Shown here: piece by piece, positions 55,186 to 61,511 of the stretch | How the letters are laid out: each line of letters begins with the position of its first letter | Numbering within the stretch: the first letter of the stretch is position 1 | Origin: Chryseobacterium rhizosphaerae | Lineage (GTDB): Bacteria; Bacteroidota; Bacteroidia; Flavobacteriales; Weeksellaceae | NCBI RefSeq assembly: GCF_003385455.1 | Contig: NZ_QNUF01000002.1 | Location: 62,001-126,000 of the forward strand | Direction of reading: 5' to 3' | DNA length: 64,000 nt | Notes under the pieces: generated by a model | What the model saw: the letters and a program-made list of their open reading frames with translations, nothing else | Told to the model about the DNA's origin: nothing | Database searches by the model: none | Program-made: the position numbers and the translations under genes

Positions 55186-55533
55186 ATGAACCCTATACAA
55201 GAGTATTTCTACAGAATCGAAGAGCCTGAGAGAAGTACTCTTTTATTTTTGCGTGAAAAAATCTTAGCATCAGATACGGAAAACATTACCGAGACCTTCA
55301 GCTTTGGACTTCCTTTTATCAAATACAAAAAGAAGATGCTATGCTATTTCTACTACAGCAAGAAATATAAAAAACACTATATCAGTTTTTATCATGGAGA
55401 TAAGCTGGATTATCCCGAACTTACTCAGGATGGCAGAAAGAAGTTTAAAATCCTTTTAATTGATCCCGAAGAAGATCTGCCGGTGGATTTTATAATAAGC
55501 CTGACACAAGAAATAAAAACATATATAAAATAA
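55186..55533 (+). CDS. DUF1801 (YdhG-like) protein
   Basis: 115 residues, YdhG/DUF1801 fold: IQEYFYRIEEPERSTLLFLREKIL, TETFSFGLPFIKYKKKMLCYFYYSKKYKKHYISFYHG, and a C-terminal helix. Small cytosolic family related to iron-chaperone frataxin-like folds; biochemical role unknown. It lies 19 nt downstream of the ABC exporter and ends at a strong palindrome shared with the convergent gene. Confidence 0.8.
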   Translation: MNPIQEYFYRIEEPERSTLLFLREKILASDTENITETFSFGLPFIKYKKKMLCYFYYSKKYKKHYISFYHGDKLDYPELTQDGRKKFKILLIDPEEDLPVDFIISLTQEIKTYIK

Positions 55534-55535
55534 AA

Positions 55536-55563
55536 ACTCCGGTACGAATCATCGTACCGGAGT
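55536..55563. terminator. Palindrome between convergent genes
   Basis: Perfect 12-bp ACTCCGGTACGA-ATCA-TCGTACCGGAGT stem. T-runs are weak on both sides, but the position fits a bidirectional terminator. Confidence 0.7.
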
Positions 55564-55581
55564 CCTCTTTAAAAACGGTCA

Positions 55582-57384
55582 TCACTGTGTATTAATACCG
55601 CTGAATTCTGCCTGCTTAATTGCCCAGGCTATCATATTCGCAAACAGTATTGAGTTTTGCACCTGCATTCCACCAGTCGAATACCCATTACCTGCATATC
55701 CGTAAGCTGATTTCTGAACAGGGAAATATCCTCCCGAACTTGGAGCTACAAAAGGTTCAATTGTATTACTTGAATACTGGTTTCCATTCGCATTTTCATT
55801 GCTTAAGAATCCTCCGTCTCCAAACCATATAAAATTCAAGCTGGTGTTTCTCAATCCTGATATTCCAGTTCTCGATGTAGTACTGTTAATAGGTTGTGCA
55901 TAGCTGTAAGGGGTAAAACCACTGGTCAATCCAGAAACACTCACCGTTGTAGAAGCGTCTTCACCCCAGTTTTTACCTCTTACATCACCAAAAGGACCAT
56001 TCAATATAGGATCATCGGAATTGGCAAGAGCATACACAGATCCTGCTCCCGCTCCATAAGCTGTTGAAATGGTAGGATCAGAAAAAATTCCACGGAATAA
56101 GTTTTGAGCAGAAGCGGTATCATCTGTAAGCGCAATCACAACTCCTTTTTTATTCAGATAGCTGGCAATATAACCCGCATCTGTGGCATTCGGAGTATAA
56201 TTATATCCTATAATGACAATATCCGGTTTATTATTTAAGGCTGTTTGAAGTGCTGTAGAAGACGGTGAATTTCCTAATGAGATATGATTAAATCCTTCAT
56301 ATTTAACAATGCTTGATGCCGTCGTCCCAAAATTAGTAGGAGAATCCATCAGGCTTCTTGACGGGCCTGTATAAGCACTGTACCCATATGCTGTCTCCAA
56401 TCCTAAATGCAAAATGTTTTTCTTAGGAATTACCACAATCACGTTCACAGAACATGTGGTAGATACTCCACCCTGGCTGTCAGAAGTAATGGTAATGGTC
56501 TTTACAGAAGTAGATGTAGGGGTTCCTGTTCCTCCCAACGTAATATTCTGGTTTCCAGTTGCTGTAAATGTACCTGATCCTTTGAAAGAAATTCCGTCAA
56601 CAGTATTGGTGGTAATGGTATAACTTCCCAATGCTGAAACATTTACCGGTAAAGTAATGGTATTGGAAGCGGTAAGAGCGGTTCCTACTTTATAGACTCC
56701 ATTTACGGTTGCACTTCCGCAAGCCATTGTATAAGTACCTGCAGGGCTCAGCACTGAAATAGAAATTGGAGGTGTACAGTTAACATCTGTTCCATTCGCG
56801 TTAAGAGCAACCGTATCAGTCTGAATATTCTGAGGAGTTCCCTGTCCCAGAACCTGTATTGTTTGTATTCCTGTATTAAGGAAAACTCCGGTTCCATAAA
56901 AATTATATCCATTGGAGGTTGTTCCGGAAACGGTATAATTTCCTAATTTAGTTACATTCACAGAAATACTCAGGTAATGAGAATTGGTTAATTCTTTGCC
57001 TTTTACATAGCTTCCCATTGCTTTAGAAGAAGAGCAGTCTATTGTAAAAACAGCTTTTCCAAGCTGTCCGCAAACACTCTTCCATTCATTATCTGTAAGG
57101 CTCCAGTAATTAAAACAATCCTCTGTTGTATTGTAAATGGTAAGCCCGTCATCTGTTGGCTTGTTGATGATAATTGCATCCCTTTGAGCTTCGGTCAACC
57201 GGGGAATAAGCATTCCTTTGTTATTATTTCCCGAAACAACATCCAGTACTGAATTTGCATTGGGAGCAGTGGTATTAATCCCTACAGCACCATTATGGGT
57301 CTGTGAATAAAACTTTCCAAAAAGTAAAAGTAAGGCAAGAAGCAGAACTTTTATTCTGGGTGTGGTAAATTTTGTCTTCATCAT
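55582..57384 (-). CDS. Large secreted protein with two Ig-like repeats
   Basis: 600 residues. Signal peptide, then AVGINTTAPNANSVLDVVSG and the MLIPRLTEAQRDAI / DDGLTIYNTTEDCFNYW segment common in flavobacterial surface proteins. Two repeats of about 90 residues follow (about 130-210 ending IQVLGQGTPQ and about 220-310 ending ITLGGTGTPT). The C-terminal domain (NILHLGLETAYGYSAYTGPSR, PDIVIIGYNYTPNATDAGYIASYLNKKGVVIALTDD) resembles a glutamine-amidotransferase/DUF4350-like Rossmann fold. No T9SS tail was recognised. Its promoter carries the dyad shared with two nearby regulator units. Confidence 0.82.
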   Translation of the reverse strand: MMKTKFTTPRIKVLLLALLLLFGKFYSQTHNGAVGINTTAPNANSVLDVVSGNNNKGMLIPRLTEAQRDAIIINKPTDDGLTIYNTTEDCFNYWSLTDNEWKSVCGQLGKAVFTIDCSSSKAMGSYVKGKELTNSHYLSISVNVTKLGNYTVSGTTSNGYNFYGTGVFLNTGIQTIQVLGQGTPQNIQTDTVALNANGTDVNCTPPISISVLSPAGTYTMACGSATVNGVYKVGTALTASNTITLPVNVSALGSYTITTNTVDGISFKGSGTFTATGNQNITLGGTGTPTSTSVKTITITSDSQGGVSTTCSVNVIVVIPKKNILHLGLETAYGYSAYTGPSRSLMDSPTNFGTTASSIVKYEGFNHISLGNSPSSTALQTALNNKPDIVIIGYNYTPNATDAGYIASYLNKKGVVIALTDDTASAQNLFRGIFSDPTISTAYGAGAGSVYALANSDDPILNGPFGDVRGKNWGEDASTTVSVSGLTSGFTPYSYAQPINSTTSRTGISGLRNTSLNFIWFGDGGFLSNENANGNQYSSNTIEPFVAPSSGGYFPVQKSAYGYAGNGYSTGGMQVQNSILFANMIAWAIKQAEFSGINTQ

Positions 57385-57439
57385 TTATAAGTTATAATTG
57401 TTTAATCATTTTTTTTAAACTAAATCGATTTGCTTGCTA

Positions 57440-57447
57440 CAAAATTA
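57440..57447 (-). promoter_or_regulatory. -7 box (TAATTTTG) of dyad unit 1
   Basis: Exact TAnnTTTG, inside a GCTACAAAATTAT block that recurs at 59816-59828. The dyad centre lies about 48 bp upstream. Confidence 0.65.
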
Positions 57448-57486
57448 TCATAGCCAGACAATTACAACAACCGCTAGCCTACGCAA

Positions 57487-57511
57487 TACTACTCACGCGT
57501 AGTAAAACTCA
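57487..57511 (-). promoter_or_regulatory. Dyad operator copy 1 (TACTAC-N6-GTAGTAAAACTCA)
   Basis: 6-bp arms TACTAC/GTAGTA around TCACGC, then AAACTCA (written on the plus strand). Located upstream of the gene ending at 55582. Shares arms, tail and spacing with 58480 and 59867. Confidence 0.65.
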
Positions 57512-57681
57512 TAGAGTGACAGAAGTCTCAAAATGATAAGAAAAAAGTTGAGTTATTATAAAAAGCAACAATAGATCAAAAAAATAATCATCCCAATTAT
57601 TGAAAATCTATTATCCTGTATTTATTGAAAAAAATAATATCATTCTGTTTAATAAAATACAATCATTTATTTTTATCAAAA

Positions 57682-58002
57682 TCAGCTTTTAAAGGCAGCT
57701 TTCCATTTGGCAATTGTGTTTCTGCTAATTTTAAAATGATTACTCACCTGAATATTGGTCAGCTTATTTTTTTTCTGGTATGTAAGAATTTGCAAAATAG
57801 ATACTTCATCATAAGAACGGAGCCTTTGATTATTGAATTCTATCGCATATTCCGGATTGCCGAAAATCTGTTGATTAAACCGCAGAATATCTACTGCAGA
57901 ATGAAGCATTTCCAATTGGCGTCTTATGCCGGGATCTTTTAATTTTTCGGGATATTTTTCTTCAAGAATATCGGTATAAATCTGCTTATAATCAGGGCTC
58001 AT
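57682..58002 (-). CDS. Small HTH protein (second of pair)
   Basis: 106 residues. An N-terminal helical part (PDYKQIYTDILEEKYPEKLKDP) is followed by a C-terminal transposase-like helix-turn-helix, YQKKNKLTNIQVSNHFKISRNTIAKWKAAF. It starts 1 nt after the stop of the upstream HTH gene, so they are translated as a unit. Such pairs are frequent in Chryseobacterium-type genomes and are sometimes annotated as transposases. No catalytic domain, terminal repeats or target duplication is visible here, so a DNA-binding regulator is more likely. Confidence 0.72.
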   Translation of the reverse strand: MSPDYKQIYTDILEEKYPEKLKDPGIRRQLEMLHSAVDILRFNQQIFGNPEYAIEFNNQRLRSYDEVSILQILTYQKKNKLTNIQVSNHFKISRNTIAKWKAAFKS

Positions 58003-58003
58003 A

Positions 58004-58417
58004 CTATATTTTTTTTAACCATTTATACAAAGTAGTTCTGGGAATCTTATATCTTTCCATAACTTCATTGGCGGTCATCGTCCCCATTCTTATTTTTTCA
58101 AGTATAAAGTCTTTAACCTCCTGTGTATAGATACTTTTTCTGAAAACCATAGTTTTTCCCCGGTGCTTTATTACATTATCAAGTCTTGCATGTGGTGCAT
58201 ACAAAATCAGGTGACCGGTATAAAATCTAAAAAAATCAAATTTTAAAAGCTTACACCATTTCAACAGCGTGTCTGCGTCAATGCTCTTCTCATCATACAT
58301 TCTTTCCACATCAGCCTCATCCTTATCTAAAAAATGAGCGATTCTCTCTATTGAGATCTGATGTTCTTCCACTTTAGACCGTATTAGGCTTCCAATGTGA
58401 ATCTCCTTAATATTCAT
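58004..58417 (-). CDS. Small HTH protein (first of pair)
   Basis: 137 residues. An N-terminal helical region (IHIGSLIRSKVEEHQISIERIAHFLDKDEADVERMYDEKS, a Xre-like fold) and a C-terminal HTH ANEVMERYKIPRTTLYKWLKKI. LLKWCKLLKFDFFRFYTGHLILYAPHA in the middle is the family hallmark. It contains two potential DNA-binding elements. The promoter has dyad copy 2 and a degenerate -7 box. Probably a transcription regulator acting with the downstream HTH protein; target inferred only from the dyads. Confidence 0.75.
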   Translation of the reverse strand: MNIKEIHIGSLIRSKVEEHQISIERIAHFLDKDEADVERMYDEKSIDADTLLKWCKLLKFDFFRFYTGHLILYAPHARLDNVIKHRGKTMVFRKSIYTQEVKDFILEKIRMGTMTANEVMERYKIPRTTLYKWLKKI

Positions 58418-58431
58418 TACTTAATTTTGAG

Positions 58432-58439
58432 TAAAAATA
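58432..58439 (-). promoter_or_regulatory. Degenerate -7 box (TATTTTTA) of dyad unit 2
   Basis: One mismatch to TAnnTTTG. It sits 49-50 bp from the centre of dyad copy 2, the same geometry as in units 1 and 3. The weak box fits a promoter that needs an activator. Confidence 0.5.
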
Positions 58440-58479
58440 TCATGCATAAAAGGAATGAAAGCATTCTCACGCCTCTCAA

Positions 58480-58504
58480 TACTACGCATAAGTAGTAAAA
58501 CTCA
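58480..58504 (-). promoter_or_regulatory. Dyad operator copy 2
   Basis: TACTAC-GCATAA-GTAGTA then AAACTCA on the plus strand, 63 bp upstream of the HTH pair and directly beyond the end of the membrane LuxR gene. Confidence 0.65.
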
Positions 58505-58516
58505 TAATGTTAAGGT

Positions 58517-59512
58517 TTAAATATTAATAAGAAAGCTATTGATATTTATTTCAGAGGAAATATTCAGTTTTTTCCGTATTCTGTATTTTTTACTTTCCAC
58601 CGCTCGAATACTGTTATTGGTACACTGGGCTATCTTTTTTGTGTCAAAATCAAGCTTCATCAATGCACAAAAGTACAGCTCCGAATGAATAAGATTCGGG
58701 TTGATCTTTAAAATATCAGGGACAAAATGAGGAAAAAACACCTGAAACTTTTCAAAAAATAACGGAGAATTATTTTCAGCCAAACTTAAAATCTCCTGAA
58801 TATTTTCTTCTGTAAGATGGTTAATAAGCATTTGATGTTTCATTAATTCCGTATTCGTTTTCACCAGGTCTTTAATGGTAGAATCCTTCATTTTTGTGTC
58901 TACGATCAATCCCTTAATCAATGCGTCTTTTTGAGCAATAAAAACAATATCCATGACAAAAGAAGCTATGGAAAACAAGATATTCCAAAGACGTACCGTC
59001 CTGAAATCATCTTTTTCCAAAAATCTGCTTTTAGGCAGCGAATCAAAATCAAAATACAGGCAAACAATAAAATTGATACTGATCGTAAGAGTAATAAAAT
59101 ATATGGAAAACGAATCTTTTTTGTAATTGAGAAAAAAAGGCACCGCAAACAAAAGGCAAAAATAAAAATATTCTACTCCGGCGTTTTTATAGGTATAGAT
59201 ATTAAAAAAACTGACAATAATCGTAAGCAGGATGAAGATAGAGATAATACTAATTTTGAGCATTTTCCCAAATCGCCTGGTTTTTCCTTTTATTGCCATT
59301 AGAAATAACCAGAAAAAAGTGATTACCGTCAGGAAAATTGAAATCAGCATATCCCCGAAAAAAGTAATGATAAAAATAGAATAAAACAGGAATATGAAGA
59401 ACAATAAAAGCAGATACCGGTTAATAAGATTCTGATAATTACTTTTGAAATCATCTTCTGTTTTCTCTGCCACACCATCATTGATCATCTTAAAGAAAAA
59501 CTTATAAATCAT
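58517..59512 (-). CDS. Membrane-bound LuxR-type transcription regulator
   Basis: 331 residues. About six transmembrane helices in the first 200 residues (LLLLFFIFLFYSIFIITFF, LISIFLTVITFFWLFLMAI, ISIISIFILLTIIVSFF, FYFCLLFAVPFFL, YFITLTISINFIVCLYF, LFSIASFVMDIVFIA). A coiled coil (MKDSTIKDLVKTNTELMKHQMLINHL) follows, then a cytoplasmic GerE/LuxR-type HTH (ALMKLDFDTKKIAQCTNNSIRAVESKKYRIRKKLNI). Senses an unknown membrane signal. ATG 59512 is the first start; 59488 (MINDGVAEK) is an alternative. A distant promoter with dyad copy 3 lies about 300 bp upstream. Confidence 0.8.
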   Translation of the reverse strand: MIYKFFFKMINDGVAEKTEDDFKSNYQNLINRYLLLLFFIFLFYSIFIITFFGDMLISIFLTVITFFWLFLMAIKGKTRRFGKMLKISIISIFILLTIIVSFFNIYTYKNAGVEYFYFCLLFAVPFFLNYKKDSFSIYFITLTISINFIVCLYFDFDSLPKSRFLEKDDFRTVRLWNILFSIASFVMDIVFIAQKDALIKGLIVDTKMKDSTIKDLVKTNTELMKHQMLINHLTEENIQEILSLAENNSPLFFEKFQVFFPHFVPDILKINPNLIHSELYFCALMKLDFDTKKIAQCTNNSIRAVESKKYRIRKKLNISSEININSFLINI

Positions 59513-59818
59513 TTTGTTGTTTTTTTATTTTAATAAAAGCTCAGATCGGTATTCTATATACTGAAATATAAAAAACCAATATTAATACCCATTTAAACAT
59601 GGTAAAAGCTTACAAAAACAAATAGTTCTGTTCATAATTTTCACCGTTAAAAAAGCATGTGATTTAAGTGTTTTTTTACAATTTGAATATTAAAATTATT
59701 AAATAAAAATGTCATTTGTAATAAAAAAATGAACATTAAAAATAAAAAAGATATCGAATGTTTAATTTTTAATACCATCTAAATAAAAAAACAGGAAGAA
59801 TACTGAGCTTTGCTGCTA

Positions 59819-59826
59819 CAAAATTA
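59819..59826 (-). promoter_or_regulatory. -7 box (TAATTTTG) of dyad unit 3
   Basis: Exact TAnnTTTG within GCTACAAAATTAT, matching the unit 1 context. About 48 bp from the dyad 3 centre. Confidence 0.6.
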
Positions 59827-59866
59827 TTTATCCGAATAAAAAAGTTTCTATCCCGCAGTACTTAAT

Positions 59867-59890
59867 GTTACGCATGCGTAGTAAAACTCA
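59867..59890 (-). promoter_or_regulatory. Dyad operator copy 3
   Basis: GTTAC-GCATGC-GTAGTAAAACTCA on the plus strand; its core TACGCATGCGTA is fully palindromic. Also followed by TAGAGTGA, as is copy 1. Confidence 0.65.
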
Positions 59891-59920
59891 GCGTATAGAG
59901 TGATCTGAACATATTCAACA

Positions 59921-59955
59921 AAAAAAGAGAGAACCTGTATGGCCCTCTCTTTTTT
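59921..59955 (-). terminator. Terminator after psd
   Basis: AAAAAAGAGAG ... CTCTCTTTTTT stem with a 13-nt loop, about 23 nt past the psd stop. Confidence 0.8.
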
Positions 59956-59977
59956 GTATATTATTAAAATTAGAATT

Positions 59978-60634
59978 CTAACTTTTCTTTAATTTGGCAA
60001 TGACATCCAATCCTCCTTTTGTTATATCACCGATCTTACAAGTAATCTCAGTATCCAACGGCAGGAAAACATCCATTCTTGAACCGAATTTAATAAATCC
60101 GAACTCATGTCCTGCTTTTGCCTGATCTCCTTCATTACAGTAGAAAACAATCCTTCTTGCAACATATCCTGCAATCTGTCTGAACACTACTTTATGATGG
60201 GTCAGTGTTTCTACGGCCACTGTTGTTCTTTCATTTTCTGTTGAAGACTTTTCATGCCATGCCACCAGATATTTTCCGGGGTGATATTTTTTGTAGATTA
60301 CTTTCCCTGTTACAGGATATCTACAGATGTGAACGTTAAGAGGAGACATGAAAATAGAAACCTGGATTGCTTTTCCATTCAGGAATTCGCCTTCTTCCAC
60401 TTCTTTAATCATTACTACTTTTCCGTCCACCGGAGCTATTACATTTTCTTTATGGTCAAGAATACTGCGGTCCGGAACTCTGAAAAACCAGAATACAAGA
60501 CAGTAAATAACCAATAAAGGCATAATGATCAGCAACGACCACATTTTAAGAAAGTAAATCGCTAAAACGCCCAATACAATAAAAAGTATGGTCGCTACGG
60601 TAATCGTTCCTTTTGATTCTCTATGTAATTTCAT
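59978..60634 (-). CDS. psd: Phosphatidylserine decarboxylase proenzyme
   Basis: 218 residues, short (archaeal/Bacteroidota type) form. N-terminal membrane hairpin (about 11-50), VIAPVDGKVVMI, MSPLNVHICRYPVTG and the self-cleavage motif IKFGSRMDVFLP. Ser185 of FGS becomes the pyruvoyl group. Makes phosphatidylethanolamine from phosphatidylserine. It lies 4 nt downstream of cdsA and is the last gene of the operon. Confidence 0.93.
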   Translation of the reverse strand: MKLHRESKGTITVATILFIVLGVLAIYFLKMWSLLIIMPLLVIYCLVFWFFRVPDRSILDHKENVIAPVDGKVVMIKEVEEGEFLNGKAIQVSIFMSPLNVHICRYPVTGKVIYKKYHPGKYLVAWHEKSSTENERTTVAVETLTHHKVVFRQIAGYVARRIVFYCNEGDQAKAGHEFGFIKFGSRMDVFLPLDTEITCKIGDITKGGLDVIAKLKKS

Positions 60635-60638
60635 GAGA

Positions 60639-61511
60639 CTAAATAAATTTTTCTAAAATAAAGTACAAATATACGACAGGAACACAGATTATGAAACTAT
60701 CCAGTCTATCTAATACGCCTCCATGTCCGGGAATGATGTTTCCACTGTCTTTAACCCCGAAATTTCTTTTCAATTGGCTTTCTACCAAATCTCCCAAAGG
60801 AGCGAAAGCAGCTACCAAAAATCCTACTATCATCCAGTTTCCTCTAAGTTCCGGCTGATAATGCTCTATGAAGTAAGACAAAACTAATGTTAAAACTACT
60901 CCACCTGCATAGCCTTCCCAAGTTTTCTTAGGAGAAATTTTAGGTGCCATTTTATGTTTTCCGAAGAATTTTCCTACCAGATAAGCAAAGGTATCGCTAC
61001 TCCAGATCAGGACAAACAGAAATAGCACCTCCAGAGAGAAGGTATTGTCATAGCTGGAGAACTTAGGCAGTCCTAATGCAAAACTAAACGGTAAAGCCAC
61101 ATAAATGACCGTAAAAATCAATTTCCCGCTATCGTAGTATAATTCGTTAGGATATTTAAATAGAGTGACTACAGCAATCCCAATTAAGGCGAGGGCTAAT
61201 ATTTCACTCAATCTGAAATCAAAAAAGAAATCATGATTGAAATACCGTTTGGAAAAAATATAAAATATAAAAATGACCAGAGGGAACACCACCCATTTTT
61301 CATAGCCTTTCCCAAATTTCATGATTTTAATACATTCCCATGACCCAACTACCAATAAAAGGCTGATCAGTCCATGATAAAGGTATTGCTGCTTAATAAG
61401 TCCCGGAGAAATAGTATTGATTAATTGTGCTCCAATGGGAGTCGTACAAAGAATGATTATAGCTACATAAGCAATACCTGAGATCGTTCTTTGAATAAGG
61501 TTTTTGTCCAA
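60639..61511 (-). CDS. cdsA: Phosphatidate cytidylyltransferase
   Basis: 290 residues with about eight membrane helices. The signature VESQLKRNFGVKDSGNIIPGHGGVLDRLDS and the preceding WSSDTFAYLVGKFFGKHKMAPKISPKKTWEG identify CTP:phosphatidate cytidylyltransferase, which makes CDP-diacylglycerol, the precursor of phosphatidylserine and phosphatidylglycerol. Adjacent to psd, with 24 nt to the LUD gene upstream. Confidence 0.96.
   Translation of the reverse strand: MDKNLIQRTISGIAYVAIIILCTTPIGAQLINTISPGLIKQQYLYHGLISLLLVVGSWECIKIMKFGKGYEKWVVFPLVIFIFYIFSKRYFNHDFFFDFRLSEILALALIGIAVVTLFKYPNELYYDSGKLIFTVIYVALPFSFALGLPKFSSYDNTFSLEVLFLFVLIWSSDTFAYLVGKFFGKHKMAPKISPKKTWEGYAGGVVLTLVLSYFIEHYQPELRGNWMIVGFLVAAFAPLGDLVESQLKRNFGVKDSGNIIPGHGGVLDRLDSFIICVPVVYLYFILEKFI

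Follow-up and report, generated by a model that had tools for sequence, protein, structure and literature searches.

A candidate operator of a membrane LuxR-type regulator at a surface-protein locus of Chryseobacterium

Genes and element copies of the cluster

We analyzed a 64-kb stretch of the Chryseobacterium rhizosphaerae genome (64,000 nucleotides of contig NZ_QNUF01000002.1, called the window below and used for all coordinates), which contains three copies of a 32-bp element in the same orientation, each upstream of a separate minus-strand transcription unit: one for a secreted protein (SEC), one for a pair of small helix-turn-helix (HTH) proteins (HTH-A and HTH-B), and one for a membrane protein with a LuxR-type HTH (LUXR). 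A first-pass annotation made from the sequence alone had reported a shorter dyad in three copies and their placement, and the sequence agrees with it in part. Our comparison of related loci indicates that LUXR is probably an autoregulated one-component activator, with the element as its private operator for one surface-protein locus. The genes and features of the cluster are as follows.

55582-57384, minus strand: SEC, proposed target; 600 amino acids (aa), with a signal-peptide-like N-terminus; its model has beta-rich domains and, at the C-terminus, a Rossmann-like domain similar to GIFT/ThuA-like folds
57440-57447, minus strand: predicted -7 box TAATTTTG of unit 1, 48 bp from the dyad centre
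57480-57511, minus strand: candidate operator copy 1, before SEC, TGAGTTTTACTACGCGTGAGTAGTATTGCGTA; the best conserved of the three
57682-58002, minus strand: HTH-B, partner of HTH-A; small HTH protein of 106 aa
58004-58417, minus strand: HTH-A, accessory gene, often missing; 137 aa, with an XRE-like N-terminal and a transposase-type C-terminal HTH
58432-58439, minus strand: predicted degenerate -7 box TATTTTTA of unit 2, 49 bp from the dyad centre
58473-58504, minus strand: candidate operator copy 2, before the HTH pair, TGAGTTTTACTACTTATGCGTAGTATTGAGAG; the least conserved of the three
58517-59512, minus strand: LUXR, proposed regulator of all three sites; membrane protein of 331 aa with a C-terminal LuxR/GerE-type HTH
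59819-59826, minus strand: predicted -7 box TAATTTTG of unit 3, 48 bp from the dyad centre
59859-59890, minus strand: candidate operator copy 3, before the LUXR transcription unit, TGAGTTTTACTACGCATGCGTAACATTAAGTA

The conserved unit (TGAGTTTTACTACKCRTGMGTAGTATTGCGTA, read with the genes) is larger than the dyad that was first noted. This dyad, ACTAC-N6-GTAGT, had been annotated in all three copies, at 57487, 58480 and 59867; the last position is correct and the other two are one base low. Two positions of the window, 57488 and 58481, match the dyad exactly, compared with an average of 0.01 over 100 shuffles; the exact dyad is absent from the third copy, which starts at 59867, because its left arm is GTTAC instead of ACTAC. 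GTAGTAAAACTCA is common to all three copies, and AAAACTCA comes after the dyad in all three, both in one orientation. Two further flanking sequences reported to be shared by copies 1 and 3, TAGAGTGA and the GCTAC beside the -7 box, are indeed common to these two copies, but they are not kept in the rows of the relatives or in their consensus, where the box alone is kept around this position. In 41 SEC sites the invariant positions are TAC (11-13), GT (20-21), TT (26-27), and G (30), with GTTT (4-7) almost so; the outer dyad letters AC/GT (9-10 and 23-24) vary more, most at the LUXR sites. A third half-site, GMGTA, lies 10 bp downstream of the right half-site of the dyad and is as well conserved as the dyad.

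Scanning the whole genome of the isolate (5.27 Mb) for TACNCNNNNGTAGTAAAACTCA with up to three mismatches gave three exact matches and 15 three-mismatch matches (20 for the reversed control pattern), and none at one or two mismatches. The motif is therefore confined to the cluster and is not scattered genome-wide, a point that the annotation had raised as decisive.

Distance to the predicted promoters

The distance from the dyad centre to the upstream edge of the -7 box, first put at about 48.5, 49.5, and 48.5 bp, measures 48, 49, and 48 bp in units 1, 2, and 3, so the fixed spacing is upheld. The degenerate box noticed in unit 2 is likewise real (TATTTTTA, one mismatch to TAnnTTTG), with TAATTTTG in both other units. 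For the relatives we scored sites with at most four mismatches in loci L078-L120 and L122, keeping one row per locus and unit (lowest mismatch) and leaving out the sites of loci L137-L140 (which are included in the weight-matrix and dyad-plus-box tests below). An exact box at 48 or 49 bp was found in all 41 SEC units and in 26 of 27 LUXR units; the 23 HTH-A units have six exact and 15 one-mismatch boxes, and two of them have the box at 50 bp. The chance of an exact box at that distance, estimated by shuffling, is about 0.002 per unit. Before the reduction to one row per locus, the first box in range was at 48 or 49 bp in 40 of 43 SEC rows and 25 of 27 LUXR rows.

A centre at -60.5 or -61.5 is a classical activator position. 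In Flavobacterium psychrophilum, TAnnTTTG is located at -12 to -5 (PMC9723704); if this position is valid here, the dyad centres would be at -60.5 or -61.5 and the element would span about -76 to -45, with predicted starts near 57435, 58427, and 59814 and predicted leaders of about 51 nt (SEC), 10 nt (HTH-A), and 302 nt (LUXR). The notion that the element is non-regulatory, being a repeat or a recombination or mobile-element site, is hardly credible: the HTH pair does sit between direct repeats, and some species have lost it from the interval between sites 1 and 2 (e.g., in locus L086), but the distance to the -7 box is fixed in unrelated upstream contexts, no copy is found elsewhere in the genome, and all three copies here point the same way as the genes downstream of them. 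It also seems unlikely that LUXR binds the element to repress transcription, or that it has a dual role and is released by a signal. The sequence does not fix the sign of regulation, and autorepression is common among local regulators; against this, repressor sites usually lie across the promoter, whereas this one is found upstream of the -33/-7 region, in a constant helical phase (spacing of 48 or 49 bp).

Distribution of the element in the genus

We searched 118 genomes of the genus, with a cut-off of E <=1e-60 for LUXR orthologues. The motif with at most one mismatch is present in 42 genomes at 57 sites (seven matches for the reversed control), and LUXR orthologues are present in 48 genomes; 41 of the 42 motif genomes carry LUXR, and one of the 70 genomes without LUXR carries the motif. 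All but one of the 57 sites are within the LUXR locus, the remaining site being in G043, which has no LUXR, and no SEC at the motif site. Seven LUXR genomes (G005, G007, G026, G084, G086, G107, and G113) lack a one-mismatch site and have sites that are more diverged. The locus is found between a DUF1801-type gene and psd in nearly all loci laid out, in the order SEC - [HTH-B - HTH-A] - LUXR; in six loci (L095, L096, L103, L105, L107, and L110) the HTH pair is upstream of LUXR, with one site before the joint unit. By its sequence, this arrangement is kept across dozens of related species. Loci L078-L120 were picked partly for holding the motif, and the 48 loci used below comprise all LUXR genomes among the 118. 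The check proposed in the annotation, namely the presence of the motif upstream of orthologues across Chryseobacterium, thus had a clear outcome: the site is at the same place and promoter distance, and it tracks the LuxR-type gene.

This co-occurrence bears on an unlinked regulator, e.g., a TPR-LuxR protein with a related HTH, as the binder of the element. Many proteins of 480-530 aa with a related HTH are encoded in these genomes, but with LUXR in 41 of the 42 motif genomes and the motif in a single genome without it, and with related elements found again next to homologues of LUXR, both in a paralogous locus and in other genera (see below), we regard such a regulator as very improbable.

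Site conservation across the 48 LUXR loci was evaluated with a leave-one-locus-out weight matrix, comparing the best site score to everything else in the locus on both strands. The SEC site (or its place) came out on top in all 48 loci and the LUXR-unit site in 42 of 48; the HTH-A site exceeded the local background in 27 of the 32 loci with LUXR first and HTH-A behind. Absolute scores above 15 were reached by 46 SEC, 36 LUXR-unit, and 20 HTH-A sites. A stricter composite (the dyad YACKCNNGMGTR plus TAnnTTTG at 47-50 bp, with at most two mismatches overall) was found at SEC in 47 of 48 loci and at the LUXR unit in 39 of 48, with five such matches elsewhere in the same loci. In both tests, the stretch behind LUXR was used for loci L096, L103, and L107, which have no SEC match.

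The protein that goes with the element

Three regulators are encoded beside the sites, and an alternative to LUXR is the HTH-A/HTH-B pair as binder of the element and regulator of all three units. Its genes lie between the sites, one site precedes them, and its members have XRE-like and transposase-type HTH matches. However, the pair is dispensable in the 48 loci: it is intact in 36, partial or broken in five, and absent from seven, and site 1 exceeds the background in all 36, all five, and all seven of these. One of the species without the pair is C. rhizoplanae (L150). Moreover, none of the six other HTH-A paralogues in the own genome has an element copy nearby in the genome-wide scan, and the SEC paralogue loci L128-L131, which have the pair and no adjacent LUXR, gave only four-mismatch noise in a scan for the 22-mer described below. 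Nor was the pair found beside the element in the Elizabethkingia, Flavobacterium, or Chryseobacterium-paralogue loci. We therefore consider the pair a quite improbable binder. The element tracks LUXR and not the pair, since 41 of 42 motif genomes have LUXR and site 1 is kept in all seven pair-less loci. As for the small regulon with an activator-like position and autoregulation by a protein encoded here, as the annotation had proposed, the comparison supports it well, with the site tracking LUXR, and disfavours the HTH pair as its binder.

SEC is not a constant partner either. In L178 (C. pennae) and L180 (C. jejuense CC143), the counterparts of L107 and L096, SEC is unrecognisable and a 262-aa secreted-looking protein is encoded behind the kept element (L178:7145-7930 and L180:7144-7929); on gene content, this is a target swap. 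In the C. lathyri loci L184 and L185, no SEC was recognised behind LUXR. Since the HTH pair is dispensable and SEC is replaced or unrecognised in some loci while the element is kept, LUXR is the constant partner.

Three other arrangements were seen. In L086, the HTH pair between LUXR and SEC is gone, and site 2, which has decayed, is about 60 bp from the intact site 1, a deletion trace. In G090 (L136), a SEC orthologue is present without LUXR at E 1e-60, and no element is found in the 382 bp between the contig end and the start of SEC; as one case at a contig end, this is suggestive only. The LUXR-type gene, QVGINT-type secreted proteins, and the HTH-A/HTH-B pair also recur as paralogous islands, in L141 (own genome, contig C10), L123, L221, L223, L227, and L228, in which the element was not found.

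Related elements in paralogous loci and other genera

The same design occurs outside the main system. Two paralogue loci of Chryseobacterium, L126 and L127 (LUXR 38-39% identical), have it with CAC-type half-sites and a promoter distance of 48-49 bp. In Elizabethkingia (L186-L188), LUXR has two homologues in tandem, with identities of about 32% and 42-45%, and CACTCGYGAGTG elements (CAC-type) are located before the first homologue and between the second and a SEC-like gene, with boxes at 48-49 bp. In a Flavobacterium metagenome-assembled genome (L189; LUXR 33% identical), TGAGTTTTAATACGCATGCGTAGTTTTGAGTAG is located between LUXR and a gene for a secreted protein of 905 aa, and the box at 48 bp has one mismatch. 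Scanning 20 paralogue and distant loci for the dyad plus box gave eight elements in five loci, compared to 0.6 expected in shuffles. In the tree, the second Elizabethkingia homologue attaches to the main group through an open fork with a support of 90/93, and the Flavobacterium row is on a long branch. A pairwise comparison of upstream regions for shared elements in the more distant LUXR loci gave noise, except for L126 and L127.

Among 346 genomes of the order, 15 have the exact 22-mer TGAGTTTTANTACKCRYGMGTA, at 16 places in total; all 15 are of this genus and belong to the 17 genomes that have a close LUXR, and each place is within about 1.1 kb of LUXR. In 296 genomes of the family, there are 11 occurrences, in seven genomes, of the CAC-type dyad plus box (zero for the control), each beside a LUXR homologue: eight are in four genomes of one other genus, with sequences that equal or resemble the Elizabethkingia loci, and the other three belong to LUXR promoters of the main system in Chryseobacterium. 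We considered and rejected a recognition code, in which R-A at residues 303-304 (the start of the recognition helix) goes with TAC half-sites and K-S with CAC; the pattern seemed to recur in the tree, but a strict code is unsupported because the main-type R-A regulators of G022, G048, and G567 have CAC-type sites at their LUXR promoters.

Features of LUXR and SEC

LUXR has four strongly hydrophobic segments above threshold, and its AlphaFold2 model (mean predicted local distance difference test score 78.6) has about six long helices, followed by a long linker helix and the HTH domain (about residues 240-331). The modelled HTH has a GerE-type fold, like the C-terminal domains of VraR, LiaR, RcsB, DosR, and NarL in Foldseek, with a template modelling (TM) score (target) of 0.7-0.78 for VraR, LiaR, and DosR at E > 0.3. 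Residues 244-323 match the end of the NF053779 model (BT3442 family; E 9.9e-08, 31.1 bits), and no receiver domain is among the Pfam or NCBIfam matches.

SEC residues 319-599 match OST48/IFT52-type GIFT and ThuA-like domains by fold (Z 14-16), and the modelled match shows a fold, not a function; whole-model Foldseek matches of SEC, with TM-scores to the query of 0.2 or less, were set aside. The SEC of the window matches no Pfam family and no PDB sequence, and its homologues (n=31) have few, weak Pfam matches, to fimbrillin-like (two members, best E 4.1e-07) and FG-GAP repeat (one member, 2.4e-51) families. Some SEC-like members match the fimbrillin-like Mfa_like_1.

Proposed mechanism

The element lies at a fixed distance from the promoter and is confined to this locus, and it goes together with LUXR in other species, in paralogous loci, and in other genera. 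We infer that LUXR is a one-component, membrane-embedded LuxR/GerE-type transcription activator, which would bind a private 32-bp operator spanning about -76 to -45 and composed of an inverted half-site pair (TACKC..GMGTA) that is followed, one helical turn downstream, by a third half-site. It would activate its own transcription unit (positive autoregulation) and the adjacent secreted or surface protein SEC, the main target as suggested by the sites, and, in many species, also the accessory pair of small HTH proteins; the membrane part may sense an envelope or external signal. One could speculate that the operator layout accommodates two dimers that cooperate, or one full dimer and another that is half occupied. 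More tentatively, and with somewhat less than even confidence, a membrane LuxR-type family in Weeksellaceae and at least one Flavobacterium might constitute self-amplifying switches, each using a private three-half-site operator near -60 to drive one adjacent surface protein, in which regulator and operator are kept while surface-protein and HTH genes are swapped or lost.

Several observations weigh against this role of LUXR. The locus is inherited as a block, so that co-occurrence within the genus alone is partly common descent. L137, the single SEC miss of the composite test, has only a site that carries a one-base insertion; site 3 is not found in nine of the 48 loci by dyad plus box or in six by weight matrix, and site 2 is not above background in five of 32. 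In L112 (G093), the LUXR frame is broken by stops and both sites remain, possibly reflecting a recent regulator loss. As for the protein, the Foldseek matches of the LUXR model, all with E > 0.3, cover the HTH domain only, and Pfam GerE is matched weakly by 10 of 30 LUXR homologues (best E 0.003) and not by the protein of the window. Finally, 15 of the 20 more distant LUXR homologue loci show no element.

Relation to known regulators

The HTH fold of LUXR is like that of NarL/FixJ-type GerE regulators (the C-terminal domains of VraR, LiaR, RcsB, and NarL), which bind short inverted half-sites, as in the LUXR element; in contrast to them, LUXR has a membrane domain and no receiver domain among its matches, and its family's Pfam GerE match is weak. 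The BT3442 family (TPR-LuxR proteins of Bacteroidota, NF053779) has a related C-terminal HTH, but LUXR is far below the family cut-off (31.1 bits versus 940), the rest of the 563-position model is unmatched, and the larger proteins that carry this HTH have 480-530 residues. Few operators of Bacteroidota have been matched to a transcription factor, and their membrane-domain LuxR-type proteins are numerous and mostly uncharacterised.

Transmembrane LuxR regulators adjoining their target genes have been demonstrated genetically in Eggerthella lenta (DadR, HcdR, and CadR; PMC9734109). Like these regulators of Coriobacteriia, LUXR has an N-terminal membrane part, a C-terminal LuxR-type HTH, a gene beside its (here predicted) target, and many paralogues with diversified membrane parts. 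However, their membrane part has 10-12 transmembrane helices, whereas LUXR has four clear hydrophobic segments and at most about six helices, short of that range; they belong to Actinomycetota and control metabolic enzymes, whereas LUXR is from Bacteroidota and goes with a surface-type protein. No operator with the sequence of the LUXR element was found for them in the available part of the source. Transmembrane LuxR regulators beside their targets are thus already known, and LUXR with its proposed private operator would be a variant of these. We found no paper on this operator or regulator family in an open-licence literature collection, which leaves most subscription journals outside its coverage.

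The predicted regulator, operator, promoter distance, and target are found together in one 4-kb piece, and the natural variants (pair-less loci, a swapped target, and diverged operators) make binding, sign, and signal directly testable. Its small size and single-locus range make the system a candidate orthogonal control element in flavobacteria.

Features upstream of LUXR

The AT-rich leader of LUXR is unusually long (about 300 nt, window 59512-59814, minus strand), with a similar length in many relatives. A conserved small open reading frame or RNA in this leader was considered and dropped, since the 43-aa frame of the own genome has no counterpart in most of 26 loci, and Rfam gave no match in 55400-60700, which covers the leader. 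Behind psd, at window 59920-59955 and just before operator copy 3, there is a terminator-like hairpin with A/T tails, identified by eye and unscored.

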